This document shows positions 580-8,922 of a DNA stretch of 58,457 bases, piece by piece (the stretch's first letter is position 1; every line of letters begins with the position of its first letter). Under the pieces are notes generated by a model. It did not search any database, had not been told where the DNA came from, and worked only from the letters and a program-made list of their open reading frames with translations. Source of the DNA: Desulfobacula sp. (GTDB lineage: Bacteria > Desulfobacterota > Desulfobacteria > Desulfobacterales > Desulfobacteraceae); the NCBI GenBank assembly GCA_013792075.1, contig VMSR01000070.1, positions 1-58,457 of the forward strand. Direction: 5' to 3'. The position numbers and the translations under genes are program-made.

Positions 580-930
580 TTAATTATTAAATGCTGTTAT
601 TTGATTTTTGTATAAACACTGATCAGGGTCACACGGCTGTCCCTTCCCTGGCTTCCCCTTGAAATAGGCTGTGCCATGACATAAGCCAGTCCGGGTGCAT
701 TGGGCAGGGCAGAACCGGACAGGGGATAATTGGGTGCCATCCCCTATATGGGTGGTCCCTTCCTGTATCTGGATTTCAGAGAGGATCTGTTGCTTATGAT
801 CTTTGGCGTATGTGATGACTTGAGTCTGCAAATCCCCTGGCAAAGAGGAAATTCCCAGGAGTTTAAAATGGTCCGCATCTACCAATATTACAGTCAGCCC
901 CTTGCTGGTCAATGGTTTCAGGTAGTTCAT
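580..930 (-). CDS. Small protein with TubC-like N domain and Cys-rich tail, 116 aa
   Basis: Residues about 10-53 have the pattern of the TubC N-terminal docking-like domain: beta strand (LTVILVD), GISSLPGDL turn, then a helix ending KQQILSEI. In mobile elements this domain often sits beside or inside primases. The C-terminal part has five cysteines (C74, C78, C84, C100, C105), suggesting a metal-binding knuckle. The start codon overlaps the primase stop as ATGA (927-930), so translation is probably coupled to the primase. Co-operation with the primase is inferred from position only. Confidence 0.65.
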   Translation of the reverse strand: MNYLKPLTSKGLTVILVDADHFKLLGISSLPGDLQTQVITYAKDHKQQILSEIQIQEGTTHIGDGTQLSPVRFCPAQCTRTGLCHGTAYFKGKPGKGQPCDPDQCLYKNQITAFNN

Positions 931-3920
931 ATGATCACCTCATCGTTATTGTTATCCACAAAGGGGGAACCTATTTCTAAAGGTTCCCCTATAGGTTCCC
1001 CTTTATAACTATCTAAGTTTATAAGATTTTGGGGACGTGGGGAACATGGGGAACCTTTTCCCCCTTCCACACTGTTCTCTTGCGTACGTGCGCATGCGCG
1101 TGTATGTATGTGCGCGTGCATGGGATTTAATTTAGGTTCCCCAGGTTCCCCAGGTTCCCCTTTCCCCGTAAAATCAACAAGTTTCAAGGGGGAACCTATG
1201 GGGGAACCTATGTTTTGAGGTTCCCCTTTTTCTATATGTTTGTTGGGCACCATTGGTTTGTATGTCAATTTCCATTGCTGGGCACTATGAGAAATCTTCC
1301 CAGCCGTCACTTGGAATAAACTATTCTCCTTGCCACCGTCCTCAGTCTCGGTTTCAATAGTAAACCGTCTACCCTTGAGTTGCCGCAACAATTGCCCCAA
1401 CTTTGTCTTTTGGCTCCGTTCTGATTTTTCGCCAATATCAACCGGTATCTCGTTCTTTATAACTATGTGGAAAATGTCTGAAACGCCTATTTCTGCCCCT
1501 CCAAAGGTCCGATACCAGGCAGAAATTAACGACCTTAGAACACTTCCTTCAGAATCAGAATCTTCATAAAAGTCATTTAAATTTTCAAGAAATCCGGGGA
1601 TACCAGCCACCGAAAGTATGCCGCCCAGGACATCAGACCAGGCTTCAAAACCGCCCAGGCGCTTTCCTTTTACTGCCGGGCGTCCTGCTGATATCCACGC
1701 CTGCGCCAGGGTTAAAACAGCGCCTATCAGTTCACCACGGTGTTTTTTTGTCCACCCCATCAGGTCCGGGTGTTTAAAATATTCCGCCCCTCTTTCCCAT
1801 GGTCTATCCAAACGAGCATCAAGTCTTATTCTAATCGTTCTCCGGGCTATTTCCGATGACATGGAAGGATTATTTCCGGTTGCGATAAATAAACAATTTA
1901 CGAGAAGATTTATTATCTCCGTTTTTCCTAAAATTCGGTCTTCCCATTTGCCAGAAGTTAAAACCGCTGCAAGTGGTGCCGAATCAATTTCATAACGAAC
2001 ATTGTCAATAAATATAACTGCTGGATTACTTTTCAACTTTGCCGTGAGCTTTTTTCGCCATTCATCATCATTCCTGCCTTCAGTCATTGTAGAAACAATT
2101 TGCCCCAAAAAAATATAAGTCAAAACGGTTACGAGTTTGGTTTTACCTGTTCCGGGTGTGCTTGCTTCCACGAGGTGTAATGGGACTTGACCGTCTATCA
2201 TTTCCCGGACAAATGGCAGAATCATCAAGGCAATGGCATGTGCTTTTTCTGCCGCACTGGTAAACGGAAAATCCGCCACGAATTCATAGATTAATAATCT
2301 GGCTTGTTTTATATCTTCGGCTGTGGGGTCATCCACTATGCACGGCATACCTATTCCTGGCGAAACCACTAATATATATTGGGATTCTTCGGAATAACCA
2401 GGGATGTGATGCAAAGTCCCATTTTTCATGAAAAAAGGAGCATATTTGAAGCCCTTCAGATAAGGAAGAGATGCGTTCTGATCCGCCAGAAGATCATCGC
2501 AAACAATGGTCGGAGGACTTATTGCATCTTCCACCCCAGTCGGCTTGCCTGAATCGTCTGTAATGACAGTGGCGTAAAAATCGGCAACATCGGTCAAGAA
2601 ACCCCGCATCATTGACCTTGTTACTTGCTTTATGTCCGAATCATCTTCATCGGAATTTTTACCCACCATCACTATCCCTAATGAATGACTGAACAAGACC
2701 GGATTTTCATCATTTTTCTGGTGGATAGCAGACCAACACTGTTTACGCACATCCCTTAATTGACTGTTTATTGGAACAATTACGGGAAGCTTTGAATTAA
2801 ATAAATTTTCTGCGGCCTTTTCTTCTTTCACTTCTTTTTGTTTGGATTCGTTTGTTTTTTTCTGCTCGACTTCAGGTTGCTTTTTAATCTCGACCTTCAC
2901 TGCATTTATGAGCAGATCCACAATACCCTTTATATCACCAGCTTTTAGCTTATCATTGATATCATACCCTTGACGGTAACACTTCGGCCATGGAGCAGTG
3001 CGTGAGCGAGCGCCCAGGATTTTTGCCGCTTTCTTTGTGGCTTCTTCCCCGGCCGGATCATTGTCAAAACACAGGATGAACTCTTCTATATGCTTATAAG
3101 GTTTTAAGGCTTTAAGTTTTTTTATACAGGACGTACTTCCTATGGCGATATGACACGCATCAGGAAGGCAAAAGTAACCGGTCAAGGCATTTATAACGGA
3201 TTCATATGTGAATATTTTTTTTGCGTCCTCGGGCTTCGTCCCGCAAATAAAAAAACAATCTGCACCCAACTTAGAACCTTTTTTGAGGACTTTATTTGCT
3301 GCCTTGCTATATTTTTCTGTAAACGAGTAGGTTTGACCACTCACCGTTTGATATTGAATGGCAAGAACATCATTCGCTTCCAAGGTTTTAAAAGCAAAGG
3401 CTACGGACGATTCATCGGCATAATATGCACCCCTGGCCATGCCCTCTTCAAATATTTTATCTGCGTACTTCTTGGAGAGTCCTCGTCTGGCAAATAGATC
3501 ATAAACAGGCTCCCTATTCGTATGCTTTTCCTGCATATTGTCCCAAGATTCTTGCATCTCTGGATTATCCCCTTGCCCGGTTTGCTCTTGCTGTTTTTTC
3601 GCCGGGCTTTCCTCTAGGGGTTTCACCGGACCTTGATTTTGAACCTGATTCGGATTGTATTCTGGCATATATTCCTTGAGGAGATCCTGGATAGACTTCC
3701 CATAATGCCATTTTTGAAAATCAAGATCGTCCATTACTTCTGGGTGGCAGTGTCGGCAAAACGCTTTTCCAGAATCGGTTTTATATACAAACCGGTCTTT
3801 TCCACCGCACTTGGGACAAGGGCCGCAAAAGCTATTTACAGATTCCTTACTCATGGTTACGACAGATGGAATTGACGGAACCCTGCGCTTCAGTTCTTCG
3901 ATTAACTGTTTATCAACCAT
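927..3920 (-). CDS. Element primase-helicase (CHC2 zinc finger, Toprim, AAA+/SF3-like), 997 aa
   Basis: Predicted to start and drive DNA replication of the element. Residues 35-58 form a CHC2-type zinc finger (CPKC then FCRHC). A Toprim core lies near residues 283-290 (ILCFDNDPAG). A charged linker follows, then a C-terminal ATPase with Walker A (STPGTGKTK, about residue 590) and Walker B (VIFIDNV, about 637), in the style of P4 alpha or ICE/prophage DUF927-type primases. The last 100 residues are not globular: repeated GEP and GSP triplets flank an H-A-H-I-H-T-R-A-C-A-R-T stretch, which reflects repeats in the DNA. It starts 8 bases after the excisionase-like gene with AGG 7 bases before ATG, and its stop overlaps the next start (ATGA). 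Confidence 0.85.
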   Translation of the reverse strand: MVDKQLIEELKRRVPSIPSVVTMSKESVNSFCGPCPKCGGKDRFVYKTDSGKAFCRHCHPEVMDDLDFQKWHYGKSIQDLLKEYMPEYNPNQVQNQGPVKPLEESPAKKQQEQTGQGDNPEMQESWDNMQEKHTNREPVYDLFARRGLSKKYADKIFEEGMARGAYYADESSVAFAFKTLEANDVLAIQYQTVSGQTYSFTEKYSKAANKVLKKGSKLGADCFFICGTKPEDAKKIFTYESVINALTGYFCLPDACHIAIGSTSCIKKLKALKPYKHIEEFILCFDNDPAGEEATKKAAKILGARSRTAPWPKCYRQGYDINDKLKAGDIKGIVDLLINAVKVEIKKQPEVEQKKTNESKQKEVKEEKAAENLFNSKLPVIVPINSQLRDVRKQCWSAIHQKNDENPVLFSHSLGIVMVGKNSDEDDSDIKQVTRSMMRGFLTDVADFYATVITDDSGKPTGVEDAISPPTIVCDDLLADQNASLPYLKGFKYAPFFMKNGTLHHIPGYSEESQYILVVSPGIGMPCIVDDPTAEDIKQARLLIYEFVADFPFTSAAEKAHAIALMILPFVREMIDGQVPLHLVEASTPGTGKTKLVTVLTYIFLGQIVSTMTEGRNDDEWRKKLTAKLKSNPAVIFIDNVRYEIDSAPLAAVLTSGKWEDRILGKTEIINLLVNCLFIATGNNPSMSSEIARRTIRIRLDARLDRPWERGAEYFKHPDLMGWTKKHRGELIGAVLTLAQAWISAGRPAVKGKRLGGFEAWSDVLGGILSVAGIPGFLENLNDFYEDSDSEGSVLRSLISAWYRTFGGAEIGVSDIFHIVIKNEIPVDIGEKSERSQKTKLGQLLRQLKGRRFTIETETEDGGKENSLFQVTAGKISHSAQQWKLTYKPMVPNKHIEKGEPQNIGSPIGSPLKLVDFTGKGEPGEPGEPKLNPMHAHIHTRACARTQENSVEGGKGSPCSPRPQNLINLDSYKGEPIGEPLEIGSPFVDNNNDEVII
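964..1226. repeat. Iteron-like array GGGGAACC, ten exact copies in both orientations
   Basis: GGTTCCCC occurs at 982-989, 994-1001, 1135-1142, 1144-1151, 1153-1160 and 1219-1226. Its complement GGGGAACC occurs at 964-971, 1048-1055, 1189-1196 and 1201-1208. A one-mismatch copy (GGGGAACA) is at 1039-1046. Spacing within clusters is 9-12 bp, about one helical turn. The array lies in the 3' end of the primase-helicase gene and encodes GEP or GSP depending on orientation. Iterons recognised by an element-encoded primase-helicase are known from the P4 origin, so an origin or incompatibility locus is the leading idea. No experimental support is available here. Confidence 0.75.
1081..1122. other. 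42-bp perfect alternating pyrimidine-purine tract (Z-DNA-prone)
   Basis: Every base from 1081 to 1122 alternates pyrimidine and purine, largely TG/CG/CA steps. The tract lies between the two halves of the iteron-like array. Such sequence can adopt left-handed Z-DNA under negative supercoiling. In the primase frame it encodes a His/Ala/Arg/Thr stretch. A role in origin structure or strand opening is an inference. Confidence 0.7.
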
Positions 3921-3928
3921 ATCAGAGC

Positions 3929-4252
3929 CTATGCCTTCAAACCATTAAACCATCCAATAGCCTCTAATTTTTTAAACCGGAGATACTTTCCAAGTTTAAA
4001 GCGTGGAAGCGATCCAGGACCAGTCTGCATGGTCAGACTATACAATTTGGTTTTGTCAATCTTGAAAAAGTCACACAACTCTTCCGGGGTCCAGATTTCG
4101 TCGGCATCAATAGGGACTGATCCGGGAGAGGTTGAGAATTCGCCTTTCAGTTTTTCAAGTAAGTGGGTTAAGGACGGGAGGTGAGCTTCAAGGCCACCGC
4201 TAAAACTGATTTCAATAGAGATTTTTTCTTGCTGGGCATTTTGATTTGGCAT
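3929..4252 (-). CDS. Excisionase/AlpA-like HTH DNA-binding protein, 107 aa
   Basis: Residues about 50-105 carry a MerR-superfamily helix-turn-helix of the excisionase (HTH_17) type: IWTPEELCDFF, a recognition helix KTKLYSL, and the wing PRFKLGKYLRFKK. The N-terminal 45 residues look like a separate alpha/beta part. In satellites and ICEs such proteins direct excision or activate the replication operon. It lies directly upstream of the primase, separated by 8 bases, so co-transcription is expected. The start at 4252 is supported by AGGA about 8 bases upstream. The choice between recombination directionality factor and operon activator is open. Confidence 0.65.
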   Translation of the reverse strand: MPNQNAQQEKISIEISFSGGLEAHLPSLTHLLEKLKGEFSTSPGSVPIDADEIWTPEELCDFFKIDKTKLYSLTMQTGPGSLPRFKLGKYLRFKKLEAIGWFNGLKA

Positions 4253-4407: not shown

Positions 4408-4956
4408 TTATTCTTTTAACGTTTGGAGCCCTCCATAATATTTATAATGTTCAAGGATAGTTTCAGCCAGACGCACCACCATATAGGAATAATCATAATA
4501 GGCCCCTTCAATAGATAACTGAAGTTCACGCAATGTATCCCAGTTGACATCCTGCCTTGGGATAAATTCGCATCGTTTCAACTCGGTAGCATCTTTGTCG
4601 GGATGGAATTGGAAAAAGATCACCTCTTGAAAACGTTCTTCTTCATCGCTTTCTGGAATCCAGTGGCAAATCTCATCATAAGTGTTCTTTGGTGGTATTA
4701 ACCACCTATCTGAGCTGATTTTTTTTTGTATTTCCTCAGCAACCAAGGCATTGCTCTTTGGGCTCCGCCCGATAAAAGATAAATGGTGCATGGTCTGTAT
4801 GAAAACAACTTCTTCCCATGGATGTTTCCTGTTTGTACCCCGTCCAGGGTTCTGCGCTTTTGAAGGAATTCGCCCCCTGGTTAATTGAGTCCTCAACCAC
4901 ACCATATTTATATCTATGATAAACTTTGGTAGGTCTGTTTGTGGAAATTCATACAT
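4408..4956 (-). CDS. Hypothetical element protein, possible DNA-binding regulator, 182 aa
   Basis: Not confidently recognised. The N-terminal 65 residues (hydrophobic D-I-N-M-V-W-L helix, then a basic R-G-R-I-P-S-K segment and W-E-E-V-V-F) resemble a winged-helix DNA-binding module. The remainder is an acidic, aromatic-rich helical domain. It is the first gene of the leftward unit and faces the RHH gene across a 181-bp divergent promoter region, the position usually held by an element master regulator. Start at 4956 follows GGGAG at 7 bases and an extended -10 element. The regulator role is positional inference. Confidence 0.6.
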   Translation of the reverse strand: MYEFPQTDLPKFIIDINMVWLRTQLTRGRIPSKAQNPGRGTNRKHPWEEVVFIQTMHHLSFIGRSPKSNALVAEEIQKKISSDRWLIPPKNTYDEICHWIPESDEEERFQEVIFFQFHPDKDATELKRCEFIPRQDVNWDTLRELQLSIEGAYYDYSYMVVRLAETILEHYKYYGGLQTLKE

Positions 4957-5757: not shown

Positions 5758-5872
5758 AACAATCAAATCCCCCCTTCCTGCTGATCCGGGGAGGGGGTTA
5801 CATTGAACATGTGGTATATTAGCCTTTGAAAAAATAATTCTATACAATGTGCAGGGCAAAAAAGGGGAACCC

Positions 5873-6958
5873 ATGGCAAAAGTCAGAAAACGGGGAACGA
5901 GTTATTTCCTGGATTATTATGATCATGAAGGTATCCGGCAAAGAAAATTGTTGCCAAAGGGCACCACAAAAAAATCAGCTCAAGAAAAATTACGAGAAAT
6001 AGAAGATCAGCTTTCCAAAGGCAATTATATTTCCGCTCAAGAAATCCCAACATTTGATCGGGTAGCGCTTGAATGGCTGGAATTAAAAAAATTAAAAATC
6101 CGGGCATCCACCTGGGCAGTATATGAAGGCCATACCCGAAACCATTTTGATGAATTCCAGAATTTAAAAATTGATCGGATCACCATTAAAATGGTGGATC
6201 AATTCATAATTGACCGGCAAACCGATGGCATGAACATTTCCACGTTGAGAAAAATCCTTGTTTCCTTGCGCCAAATACTAAGCCTTGCAATGAAAAGGGG
6301 CTATTGCCATACCAACCCCCTGGACTATGCCGATATGCCGACAAGCCAAGGGAATGAAACTGATAACGGGGATAAGATCCAGGTGCTTAACCGGGCCGAT
6401 ATATCCGGTCTTCTGGATGCCGTCACAGCACATAAATACCATGTGCTGTTTTCATTGGCTATTTTCAGCGGTGCCAGGCAAGGGGAACTCCTGGGCTTGA
6501 AATGGCCGGATATCCAATGGGAGGCAAGCCAGATCCACATACAGCGAAGTTTTAACAACCAGCGCTTTTATGACACCAAGACCAAAGGGTCAAACCGGAA
6601 AATTGATATCGGACCTGCCATGCTGAAGAAATTAAAAAAATGGCGGATTGCTTGCCCACCTGGAAGCCTGGATTTAATATTTCCGACCGAAGCAGGGAAC
6701 CCGATGAACCACAACAATATGGTGAACAGATATTTCTTGCCGGGCCTAAAGCTTGCCGGGCTTGAAAAAATCCGGTTCCATGACCTTAGACATACATATG
6801 CCAGTCTTTTGATTGACCAGGGGGAGAACATCAAATACATTCAAACCCAATTAGGACACAGCAACCCAACGGTGACATTGAACGTGTATGCCCACCTGAT
6901 GGAAAAAACAAATCGAGTATCAGCACAGAAACTTGAGGATGCAATTTTAGGAAACTGA
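5873..6958 (+). CDS. int: Tyrosine-family site-specific integrase, 361 aa
   Basis: Catalyses integration and excision at the tRNA-Val site. The N-terminal 60 residues are an AP2-like arm-binding domain, followed by a SAM-like core-binding domain (about 60-165). The catalytic domain shows the first Arg (FSGARQGELLGL), the H-x-x-R box (HDLRHTYASLL), the later His (LGHSNPTVTL) and the nucleophile Tyr (NVYAHLM). Length is normal for the family and all key residues are present. Start 5873 (MAKVRKRG) follows AAGGGG; the alternative GTG at 5849 lacks a ribosome-binding site. The leader contains one GGGGAACC (5864-5871), the same octamer as the iteron array. Confidence 0.93.
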   Translation: MAKVRKRGTSYFLDYYDHEGIRQRKLLPKGTTKKSAQEKLREIEDQLSKGNYISAQEIPTFDRVALEWLELKKLKIRASTWAVYEGHTRNHFDEFQNLKIDRITIKMVDQFIIDRQTDGMNISTLRKILVSLRQILSLAMKRGYCHTNPLDYADMPTSQGNETDNGDKIQVLNRADISGLLDAVTAHKYHVLFSLAIFSGARQGELLGLKWPDIQWEASQIHIQRSFNNQRFYDTKTKGSNRKIDIGPAMLKKLKKWRIACPPGSLDLIFPTEAGNPMNHNNMVNRYFLPGLKLAGLEKIRFHDLRHTYASLLIDQGENIKYIQTQLGHSNPTVTLNVYAHLMEKTNRVSAQKLEDAILGN

Positions 6959-7044
6959 TACCAAAAATATAAAATTATTGAAATAAATTTTAACATATTT
7001 TCTATTGTGTATCTTTATAAATAAGCATAGGAGGAACTTCTATT

Positions 7045-7455
7045 ATGGCTCCCGAAACACTCGAATTGATACAATCCTTAATACCTGTTTGTTCGGCGAT
7101 TGCTGGTGCTATTGTAGGTGTTGCTGGCACTGTAATTGTCACATATATGAACAAGAAGTCAGAGGAAAGGAAACACCTTGCTTCTCTTTCATTCAATGCG
7201 GGGACGGAAAATTTTAAAGCTTCAGTAGAAATCACTAAAGCACGGATACTAAATTATCAAAAGTCACCCAATGTTCTTCCTTTGGAATATTATATCCTCA
7301 ATATGAAATATTTGACTGATATAATTCAAAAAAAAGGACTACGTAAAGAAGAGTTAAAAGCTTTTATTCTTCAAAAGAATGAAATCATGGAGGGAGTTTT
7401 TAATGCCGCTTATAAACCTAATTTGGAGAAAGACACTGAGAAGGTAGAAAAATAA
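7045..7455 (+). CDS. Single-pass membrane protein, element cargo, 136 aa
   Basis: Residues about 12-36 form one transmembrane helix rich in Ala, Gly, Ile and Val, ending in TYMNKKSEER, so the basic helical remainder should be cytoplasmic. The rest is predicted helical with two KGLRKEELK-type amphipathic stretches. The ribosome-binding site is AGGAGG, 10 bases before ATG. It sits between integrase and the tRNA attachment site, where satellites and islands usually carry accessory genes. No family is recognised; a role in phage exclusion would be speculation. Confidence 0.6.
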   Translation: MAPETLELIQSLIPVCSAIAGAIVGVAGTVIVTYMNKKSEERKHLASLSFNAGTENFKASVEITKARILNYQKSPNVLPLEYYILNMKYLTDIIQKKGLRKEELKAFILQKNEIMEGVFNAAYKPNLEKDTEKVEK

Positions 7456-7500: not shown

Positions 7501-7538
7501 ATCAAAAAGACCTACAGGGTTTCCTGTAAGTCTTTGAT
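7501..7538 (-). terminator. Rho-independent terminator of tRNA-Val (bidirectional)
   Basis: Arms of about 16-18 bases (ATCAAAAAGACCTACAGG with CCTGTAAGTCTTTGAT, two bulges) enclose a 4-base loop. On the minus strand the stem is followed by six T residues; on the plus strand it is followed by ATTTTT-type sequence. It therefore ends the tRNA transcript and may insulate the element from the host. Confidence 0.75.
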
Positions 7539-7543
7539 TTTTA

Positions 7544-7619
7544 TGGTAGGCACGATCAGACTTGAACTGACGACTTCTACCGTGTCGAGGTAGCACTCTA
7601 CCAACTGAGTTACGCGCCT
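7544..7619 (-). tRNA. tRNA-Val (anticodon GAC), element attachment site
   Basis: The minus strand folds as a full 76-nt tRNA: acceptor AGGCGCG/CGTGCCT with encoded CCA (7546-7544), D stem ACTC/GAGT, anticodon stem CTACC/GGTAG, T stem GTCAG/CTGAT and T loop TTCAAGT. The anticodon loop is TCGACAC, giving anticodon GAC (Val, codon GUC). Position 33 reads C, whereas bacterial tRNAs almost always have U33. A73 fits valine identity. The 3' end faces the integrated element. Confidence 0.9.
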
Positions 7620-7632
7620 TTAACGTCTGCTG

Positions 7633-7661
7633 TTTTTATCAAACCCTGTATTTTGTGTCAA
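7633..7661 (-). promoter_or_regulatory. Promoter of tRNA-Val
   Basis: On the minus strand TTGACA (7661-7656), a 17-bp spacer and TAAAAA (7638-7633) lie just upstream of the tRNA 5' end at 7619. The -35 is perfect and the -10 matches four of six positions. Confidence 0.65.
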
Positions 7662-7674
7662 GAGAAACCCAACC

Positions 7675-8922
7675 TTATTCATTTGTTTTTTCTTTGGTGT
7701 CTGTGTCATCCGCCCGGGGCAGGCCATCCTGTTTTTCAATAAACCGGATGGAGACCGACTGATCCGTCACTTCCGTCACCTCAATGCCAAACCCGTCAAA
7801 GGATTTGAGCATCACGGCATCGGCAAATTGTTGGGGGCTTCCCTTAAAAACAATATCCATAACGGCATTGTCGGTGCCGATCTCCTTGGGTTGCATGTTT
7901 TCAATGTCCTGGATTTCCCTGAGTTCTTTTTTCAGGGCAATGAACCGGGGCAGAAATTGTTCTCCTGAAATGGTGACATTGAACATATTTTCCTGTCTTA
8001 GCCGCTTGCTCCAGAAGGCATCGATTTTTTGGCTCAGATCCAGGGCAGACGCCACAGCCGCCTCGGCAATGGCTCCCCCGGATGCTTCCTGGCCCGGGAT
8101 GCTTTTTGCCGTTGCCTGGCTCACAGCGTTCAGTACTTCTTTCCCGGATGTAAGATCGTACCCTTTCAGGTCAATCACAGCATCAAATATTTTTTCATCC
8201 CCCATGCGGTTAACCGATTCCGATGCCCCGGTCTTTCCCATAACCACCATATCCGCCTTGAGAACCTTGCCCAGCTTCATGGCAGCATCGATATCGTAAA
8301 TGGATGTGAACTGGATATTGTAAAAAGAGGGATCCGGCCGGTCCGGGCCTGTCACTGCCAGTTTGAATCGATTTTGAACCATCTTTTCCAAAATAATCGT
8401 TTCCGAAAGGGCGGAATAGGGCTCTGGATTGTTTCCCCACCAATAGCTGGGAAGCAGCTTTTCAGGTGTCTGCTCAGCAATCAGAAAAAGGATCACAGGC
8501 TTATCTGTTGCGGCATTGAGTATCCTGGCATCGGTCAATTGTTTTTCGAGCAACTCCATGTTGATCTTGGATTCAACGCCCACCAGATAATATCCCTTGT
8601 GCTGCACCCCCCCCATCACCCGATAGGTGATCACATAGTCCGAGGCCCGGGGCAAAATATTTCCATACAAAAATTCAAGATTGGCGCCAAAGACCTGGCG
8701 GGAGACCAGGGATGCAAAGGCATTTTGAACCGCCTTTTCCAGGGCATCTTCCACTGCTTTTTTCTTGGCACCGGGAATGTCCTGTCCGCTGATCTTCTGC
8801 TGGCCTGTGGTCGCACCGGTCAATACCGTGACCGACCGCTCAGCAAATCCTGTCTCCTGGAAGAGGAGCAGCCCGAAAAGAATGGCAGCCATACACATGC
8901 CCGCCTGTTTTTTAGTCCCCAT
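7675..8922 (-). CDS. Exported protein of unknown function, FlgT-N-like, about 415 aa
   Basis: An N-terminal signal peptide (basic MGTKKQ, hydrophobic AAILFGLLLF, cleavage near G-F-A-E) directs export to the periplasm. Residues about 45-75 carry the G-x-x-x-A-K-K-K-A-V-E-D-A-L-x-K-A-V pattern seen in FlgT N-terminal and related exported proteins, followed by alpha/beta repeats that may bind the outer membrane or peptidoglycan. Start 8922 is preferred because AAGG is 7 bases upstream; the ATG at 8928 overlaps the previous stop (ATGA) but has AAGG too close. It is last in the htpG-rimO-prenyl synthase operon. A motility role is unproven; no flagellar genes are nearby. Confidence 0.6.
   Translation of the reverse strand: MGTKKQAGMCMAAILFGLLLFQETGFAERSVTVLTGATTGQQKISGQDIPGAKKKAVEDALEKAVQNAFASLVSRQVFGANLEFLYGNILPRASDYVITYRVMGGVQHKGYYLVGVESKINMELLEKQLTDARILNAATDKPVILFLIAEQTPEKLLPSYWWGNNPEPYSALSETIILEKMVQNRFKLAVTGPDRPDPSFYNIQFTSIYDIDAAMKLGKVLKADMVVMGKTGASESVNRMGDEKIFDAVIDLKGYDLTSGKEVLNAVSQATAKSIPGQEASGGAIAEAAVASALDLSQKIDAFWSKRLRQENMFNVTISGEQFLPRFIALKKELREIQDIENMQPKEIGTDNAVMDIVFKGSPQQFADAVMLKSFDGFGIEVTEVTDQSVSIRFIEKQDGLPRADDTDTKEKTNE

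Follow-up and report, generated by a model that had tools for sequence, protein, structure and literature searches.

A bidirectional array of octamers at positions 964 to 1226 of the Desulfobacula sp. contig VMSR01000070.1, read here over a window of 58,457 bp (the whole stretch analyzed), is very probably the replication origin of an integrated satellite-like element. The 997-amino-acid (aa) primase-helicase encoded across the array would be its initiator. We infer both octamer binding and origin activity in this element from the layout of the repeats, from a homologous plasmid system in which a similar array is bound and required, and from the way in which the array is conserved among relatives.

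Organization of the octamer array

Ten exact copies of GGGGAACC/GGTTCCCC start at 964, 982, 994, 1048, 1135, 1144, 1153, 1189, 1201, and 1219, four on the plus and six on the minus strand, and a further copy with one mismatch occupies 1039 to 1046. The first-pass annotation had reported ten exact copies and one near copy in a 263-bp stretch at the 3′ end of a primase-helicase gene, and counting, shuffling, and codon resampling all bear this out. GGGGAACC occurs 15 times in the window, so that 5 exact copies lie outside the array; shuffles of the whole window contained 5.3 copies on average and 11 at most (n = 100), and Markov shuffles of 900 to 1300 contained 0.07 on average and never more than 2 (n = 20,000). 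Direct octamer pairs 1 to 30 bp apart number four in the array and one on another contig of the same genome. All ten exact copies fall within the open reading frame (ORF) at 927 to 3920 in a single codon phase, where they encode six GEP (always GGG GAA CCT) and four GSP (always GGT TCC CCN) units. Synonymous codons resampled with the usage of the gene body generated 1.3 copies on average and 7 at most, with 0 of 20,000 trials reaching 10, and permutation of the tail's own synonymous codons reached 10 copies in 2 of 20,000 trials.

The array resolves into two outer and two inner blocks around a core, as listed below together with the gene that carries them (lines without a sign carry no strand).

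927 to 3920 (−): primase-helicase, 997 aa, putative initiator; Zn ribbon, Toprim, D5/SaPI-PriRep-like AAA+ helicase, and C-terminal winged-helix-like domain
1257 to 1580 (−): C-terminal winged-helix-like domain, about aa 781 to 888, putative octamer-binding and specificity domain
964 to 1226: whole bidirectional octamer array, proposed replication origin (from repeats, layout, and codon resampling)
1189 to 1226: outer block A, on the 5′ side of the gene; GGGGAACC at 1219 to 1226 (−), 1201 to 1208 (+), and 1189 to 1196 (+)
1135 to 1160 (−): inner block B, GGGGAACC three times in tandem at a 9-bp period, on the gene strand (1153, 1144, 1135)
1056 to 1134: core, 79 bp, between the convergent inner blocks
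1081 to 1122: alternating purine-pyrimidine tract, 42 bp uninterrupted, part of MHAHIHTRACARTQ; Z-DNA-prone as judged from its letters
1039 to 1055 (+): inner block C, facing block B; GGGGAACC at 1048 to 1055 and the one-mismatch copy at 1039 to 1046
1002 to 1038: AT-rich gap separating block C from block D (27% GC versus 42% in the element part of the window)
964 to 1001: outer block D; 994 to 1001 (−), 982 to 989 (−), and 964 to 971 (+)

Read on the gene strand with > for GGGGAACC, the order is A > < <, B > > >, the 79-bp core, C < < (the second imperfect), and D > > <. Start-to-start spacings, with the near copy included, are 18, 12, 45, 9, 87, 9, 9, 36, 12, and 18 bp, all multiples of 3. 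The earlier description of copies spaced about a helical turn thus fits only some of these intervals, the remainder of a range from 9 to 87 bp departing from it. The array is also interrupted by the core with its alternating tract, a feature absent from the first-pass annotation. That tract is the longest of its kind in the window, the next longest being 12 bp, and the core has a GC fraction of 0.49 against 0.42 for the element part. The tract may be able to adopt the Z form, and the AT-rich gap at 1002 to 1038 is a possible melting region.

As a separate observation, the plus strand at 958 to 1230 encodes an antisense peptide that matches the protein's own tail (49% identity, E = 1e-13) because the array is inverted and repetitive; the match can mislead protein searches.

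Noncoding counterparts of the array

RepA of the Streptomyces plasmid pWTY27 is a homologue of the helicase half of the protein (tblastn to NC_013667, E = 7e-52), and both match PHROG families 19930, 10537, and 29234. The pWTY27 repeats, GTGGGAAC and a near inverse (PMC3583192), are likewise 8 bp long, lie in both orientations directly 3′ of repA, and follow the block order of the window (> > <, > >, a 64-bp core, < <, > < <, with one inexact copy as in the window). According to the available part of the report on this plasmid, replication needs repA, repB, and a 300-bp noncoding sequence; deletion of the 300-bp region abolishes replication, and a 149-bp inner piece (382 to 530) is insufficient to restore it (PMC3583192). 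The same source states that RepA binds the array specifically and protects 405 to 447 and 462 to 509, from which its authors infer bidirectional replication (PMC3583192). Mapped onto these coordinates, block B (486 to 502), the core (422 to 485), and block C (405 to 421) together make up 405 to 502, the protected stretch, with A and D outside it. The window therefore shares with pWTY27 the helicase homology and the A-B-core-C-D order. It differs in that its array lies within ORF 927 to 3920 instead of in noncoding DNA, in its octamer, in the pWTY27 primase being a separate prim-pol protein, and in the longest alternating run of the pWTY27 core, which is 12 bp.

Two further systems resemble the array in kind. 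In P4, 8-bp type 1 repeats (GGTGAACA and variants) form crr just 3′ of the primase-helicase gene alpha, laid out twice as > > 35 bp < < >. Judged by the annotation of the P4 record, the window has the same convergent 8-bp repeats beside a primase-helicase gene, and the P4 kinship proposed at first pass holds in this sense. P4 differs in its noncoding crr, its pyrimidine-rich core (alternating in the window), and its separate ori1. Origins of phage-inducible chromosomal islands (PICIs), as far as the available text describes them, lie immediately 3′ of rep and have an AT-rich region with an iteron set on each side (PMC6092414). The window shares with PICIs, including the Staphylococcus aureus pathogenicity islands (SaPIs), two iteron sets around a central region on the 3′ side of rep, and its helicase resembles SaPI5 PriRep in fold (7ola, 7om0). 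It departs from them in that the array lies within the coding sequence rather than outside rep and in that the central region is alternating purine-pyrimidine with 49% GC, not AT-rich. P4 crr, PICI origins, and pWTY27 are thus noncoding counterparts, and bidirectional octamer origins beside primase-helicase genes are already known.

A precedent for iterons of an initiator within its own gene is the lambda origin in gene O (PMC3985674). It differs in having four 19-bp iterons in the middle of O. Lambda O recruits the host helicase through P, and its origin is not known to have convergent blocks. The N15 origin reportedly also lies within repA, but the N15 region carries no such array and was discarded as a precedent for it. 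In the literature searched, whose coverage was limited, we did not find the in-gene class itself, that is, a whole P4/PICI-like origin in frame in the 3′ end of its initiator gene with a recurrent alternating core and coupled switching of octamer and reader. The proposal of the first-pass annotation that iterons, and with them a possible origin, are embedded in the gene of their own initiator is supported.

The P4 case also suggests the strongest alternative, namely that the array is a target of the initiator other than the origin (a copy-number or incompatibility locus) and that the main origin lies elsewhere in the element. P4 has crr beside alpha plus ori1 several kilobases away, both with type 1 repeats, and the contig gap that leaves our element incomplete could hold a second array. 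However, no second array of GGGGAACC was seen in the window or in the 12 kb read of contig C202, to which we assign the other end of the element; the pWTY27 array beside repA is required for replication; and PICI origins are placed at the 3′ side of rep in the passages available (PMC6092414). We regard this alternative as unlikely and favor the origin.

Recurrence of the array in relatives

Ten relatives (L006 to L015), six from GTDB genomes (all planctomycetes) and four from IMG/VR (31 to 34% identity in the best segment), all have a bidirectional octamer array where the homologous gene ends, either across the stop codon or beyond it. Their octamers differ (CGGGGTTA, GCGGGGTT, GCGAGGTT, and so on), and the weakest, L015, has four exact copies. 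An inner pair faces across a core in most of them, with outer blocks unlike those of the window.

Searching IMG/VR with a profile yielded 200 relatives, and we retained the best 80 as loci; 3 of these end before the region, and counts therefore refer to 77. At least 5 exact copies of one octamer (range, 5 to 16) were present in 75 of the 77, the two misses being L103 (4 copies) and L104 (3 copies). Both orientations occurred in 75 of the 75 array-bearing loci, as they do in P4 crr and pWTY27, and the use of both, which had been thought unusual for iterons, is the rule in this company. Every counted exact copy lay inside the ORF in 71 loci, and 66 had a convergent block pair around a core of 50 to 160 bp. 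Octamers and tail peptides differ among these relatives while the layout (outer, inner, core, facing inner, outer) is kept: 27 different best octamers were scored, some being shifted registers or one-base variants of each other, and four loci (L078, L093, L094, L097) use the octamer of the window. The 82 loci comprising the 80 from IMG/VR, L130, and the window fall into 45 sequence clusters, 39 of whose representatives have at least 6 coding copies (up to one mismatch) and could be tested by 200 synonymous resamplings each. The exact count exceeded every one of the 200 resamples in all 39.

Among 13 plasmid and phage relatives that were fetched, 5 (L037, L038, L043, L048, L049) have a bidirectional array of at least 6 exact copies outside the ORF. 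Of these five, pWTY27 and L048 have the block order of the window, and the simple order of four blocks is not kept in L037, L043, and L049. The count of 5 in 13 led us to reject an array in every homologue. In the eight helicase relatives from the host phylum (L017 to L024), no 8-mer exceeded 4 copies, and five of them (L017, L018, L021, L022, L023) look degenerate-convergent by eye only. L130, from the host's family, has at 4446 to 4700 a noncoding, convergent GTGTGTTTAC array after the stop codon, with only 4 copies of a 10-mer and an AT-rich core, and is closer to the PICI description.

Selection on DNA or on the encoded peptide

Tail peptides vary widely across relatives (GEPGEPGEP, GERGERGER, GDVGDVGDV, GVPGVPGVP, CEPCEPCEP, and also GTW and REC units). 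We compared 4-fold degenerate sites in 26 non-overlapping close IMG/VR pairs with gene bodies 72.8 to 97.5% identical. Over all 26 pairs, 4-fold sites differed at 2,984 of 12,564 positions in the body and 94 of 1,042 in the array, and amino acids at 2,152 of 22,046 and 552 of 2,277, respectively. The 17 pairs with the same motif, 8 of them from one cluster, gave 4-fold differences of 1,581/8,638 (18%) in the body and 39/881 (4%) in the array, and amino acid differences of 934/14,588 and 213/1,684. In the 9 pairs with different motifs, differences at 4-fold sites were equally frequent in array (55/161) and body (1,403/3,926), as would be expected after a rewriting of the whole octamer set. In arrays that share a motif, constraint therefore acts on silent positions and is relaxed for the protein, opposite to the pattern of ordinary coding sequence. 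The silent sites are nearly frozen while the peptides diverge, so selection acts on the DNA. Peptide repeats retained over randomized codons, which the first-pass annotation had named as the sign of selection on protein, are the opposite of what was found.

These figures bear on the possibility that selection favors the repeats for the protein tail that they encode, a flexible linker rich in Gly-x-Pro, with the DNA repeats a by-product of in-frame duplication. Such a tail would fit the shared codon phase of the ten copies, the spacings in multiples of 3, and the short C-terminal peptide W[LW]xx[VML], present in 28 of the 41 cluster representatives whose ORF is closed. Against this, the peptides change freely between relatives over the nearly frozen 4-fold sites, in-frame duplication of one peptide cannot yield inverted copies, and bidirectional arrays of similar layout occur outside coding sequence. 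Silent-site conservation and the noncoding cases together make a protein repeat very improbable, and we rejected it.

Core and alternating tract

Cores of coding arrays are mostly 53 to 71 bp long (85 bp in L050, 95 bp in L087, and 79 bp in the window). They usually read roughly TTTTCC-nACCCyT-ACGCG-alternating-GAGAGGA-GGAAAA, with a pyrimidine-rich left side, an alternating middle, and a purine-rich right side. By eye, most cores outside coding sequence have a pyrimidine tract, ACGCG, and an alternating tract in the same order. We examined 49 cores, from 35 cluster representatives and 14 further loci (the L007 core was set by hand, and 10 representatives in which the convergent core was incomplete or went undetected were omitted). 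In 41 of them, no alternating run elsewhere in the locus is as long as that of the core. L008 (a tie), L046, L055, L080, L087, L089, L090, and L115 do not conform, and the tract was rejected as a universal feature. It was unusual relative to synonymous resampling (10 or fewer of 200) in only 19 of 39 clusters.

Motif switching and the putative reader domain

Octamer identity co-varies with the C-terminal domain of the helicase. In L052 and L076, gene bodies 94% identical (over the 648 codons covered by L076) carry arrays of GGGAACGT and GTGGACGT, respectively, in a similar block order. A comparison of 7 switched with 11 unswitched pairs, hand-chosen and with some loci used twice, was made in 20-residue bins. 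Changes in the bins corresponding to window aa 780 to 895 were in 2.9- to 8.7-fold excess in switched pairs, most strongly at 820 to 895; bins 660 and 700 were also about 3-fold higher, on few changes. Whether or not recombination contributes, the putative reader domain and its sites seem to move as a unit.

AlphaFold models gave a predicted local distance difference test (pLDDT) score of 91 for aa 375 to 897 and 86.5 for the C-terminal domain alone, and in both models this domain has three helices followed by three strands, a winged-helix-like order. A Foldseek search with the domain alone returned nothing below E = 0.001, the top matches being PAS/LOV domains, and VIA gave weak winged-helix matches (Zur, Z = 6.8; Fur; MecI; ORC) that are suggestive only. 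The helicase model resembles NrS-1, pox E5/D5, African swine fever virus PrimPol, and the SaPI5 primase-helicase. VIA aligned it to 7ola (Z = 13.9; 329 residues; 5.9 Å), tied with pox E5/D5, and Foldseek ranked NrS-1 first (E = 8e-8) and found 7ola at about 1e-6, with TM-scores of only 0.3 to 0.4. The fold of the SaPI PriRep/pox D5 helicase domain is thus present in the window model.

We tentatively extend these observations to a broader proposal, which we hold with much less confidence than the origin itself. The arrays may represent a large undescribed class of origins in which the 3′ end of the initiator gene is an in-frame, transplantable specificity cassette, with the DNA-binding wing of the helicase and roughly 11 to 12 octamers side by side and switching words together, such that one 3′-end exchange would create a new replication or incompatibility type. 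In most members, the melting core would be a conserved sandwich of pyrimidine, alternating purine-pyrimidine, and purine tracts that, held between two opposed helicase rings, works through a left-handed (Z-DNA) transition driven by supercoiling.

Proposed mechanism and points against it

In the proposed mechanism, the C-terminal winged-helix-like domain (about aa 781 to 888) would bind the octamers, with the opposed inner blocks B and C on either side of the core and A and D outermost. The protein would assemble on both halves, probably as two opposed hexameric rings, like superfamily 3 (SF3) initiators. The convergent symmetry makes this the most likely loading mode, which is known for simian virus 40 T antigen (PMC9894130, as far as its available text goes). 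DNA would then be melted in or beside the core, followed by unwinding and priming in both directions. The in-frame position of the origin may be explained by the following gene of the operon, whose start overlaps the primase stop codon (ATGA), and the C-terminal tail would consequently be largely a passenger of the DNA signal.

Several points weigh against the origin and its initiator as described. The studied homologue, pWTY27 RepA, is only 30% identical over 42% of the query, and its array is noncoding. The silent-site test comes from IMG/VR pairs, the window having no close relative with which to be paired. The window core is off the family consensus, with TAAATTAAATCCC in place of TTTTCCnACCC and a length of 79 bp against mostly 53 to 71 bp. 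Co-variation with the C-terminal domain could stem partly from recombination of the 3′ end of the gene. Four plasmid relatives (L039, L044, L045, L046) have weak or degenerate arrays, and no clear array was seen with the helicase homologues of the large phages phiCbK (L040), phiAsp2 (L041), and RpAliso (L042) and the Legionella adelaidensis plasmid (L047); the helicase, therefore, does not always bring an array. Finally, C202 is joined to the window by attachment (att) sites and gene content only, with no overlap of sequence.

It is scarcely credible that the array serves instead in partition, packaging, or recombination (as a centromere, pac/cos, or resolution site) or in the regulation of transcription: clusters of short repeats are typical there too, but the array is at the 3′ end of the helicase gene in the relatives found, its octamer co-varies with the C-terminal domain, a homologous RepA binds such an array, and att lies at 7534 to 7588, beyond the integrase and 6 kb off.

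The satellite-like element and its other genes

The remaining features of the element are as follows.

186 to 578 (−): ORF of 130 aa, no family found
580 to 930 (−): next ORF after the primase, 116 aa, its start codon overlapping the primase stop as ATGA
3929 to 4252 (−): HTH_17 protein, weak match (E = 0.004), with a putative AlpA/excisionase-like role
5849 to 6958 (+): tyrosine integrase
7534 to 7588: att repeat of 55 bp, overlapping the 3′ end of tRNA-Val (7544 to 7619, −)
C202, 7948 to 8002 (genome G000): identical 55-bp att copy, marking the other end of the element

On C202, genes for the large terminase subunit, a fused protease-capsid protein, and a portal lie between the start of the contig and the att copy. 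The closest relative, L050, likewise has a capsid gene next to its primase. The element, which lies at tRNA-Val and comprises about 15.5 kb besides the contig gap, is best described as a capsid-encoding satellite resembling capsid-forming PICIs (cfPICIs). These carry an integrase, an AlpA-like protein, a replication module, TerL, protease/capsid, and portal and are not known to have tail or lysis genes. Our element has the corresponding set (integrase, helix-turn-helix protein, replication gene, own terminase, protease-capsid fusion, and portal), the AlpA likeness being putative given the weak match. No tail or lysis genes were found among the element proteins searched, a set that left aside several small ORFs and the contig gap. 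The comparison is one of gene content. cfPICIs are described, in the text available, as producing their own capsids (PMC11389934).

Other observations concern neighboring genes. Between the integrase and tRNA-Val, a 136-aa ORF (7045 to 7455) has a hydrophobic N terminus by eye and a weak PADLOC match. Beside the distal att, a 598-aa RelA/SpoT-domain protein (C202, 5821 to 7617; L148), with only a weak PADLOC match, is probably cargo. Downstream of the primase, L053 (7865 to 9250) and L073 (7479 to 8687) encode ParB_N fused to an N6_N4 DNA methylase, and L121 encodes an N6_N4 methylase. Within about 200 bp before the array, TGTACA-type palindromes and GCGCGCG runs were read by eye in L007 (about 7080 to 7150), L008 (about 7000 to 7080), and L013 (about 7570 to 7675). 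In many relatives (e.g., L093, L116, L122), the array is followed by a short C-terminal peptide, PPxWLxxVP/L. Its last codons often contain G-rich sequence resembling a Shine-Dalgarno site, ahead of an overlap of the TGATG or ATGA type, so that it may act either as a peptide motif or in ribosome binding for the following gene.

Significance of the array

Taken across the family, the arrays suggest an origin that is kept as a layout while its binding word and the encoded peptide turn over. They amount to a natural collection of initiators paired with origins of many different words, and in a single small system two questions could be tested: how octamers are read, and specificity switched, by a self-loading helicase of the SF3-like type, and whether or not an alternating purine-pyrimidine tract is an origin melting device. 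In practical terms, the origins of such satellites could be read off the last 300 bp of one gene.

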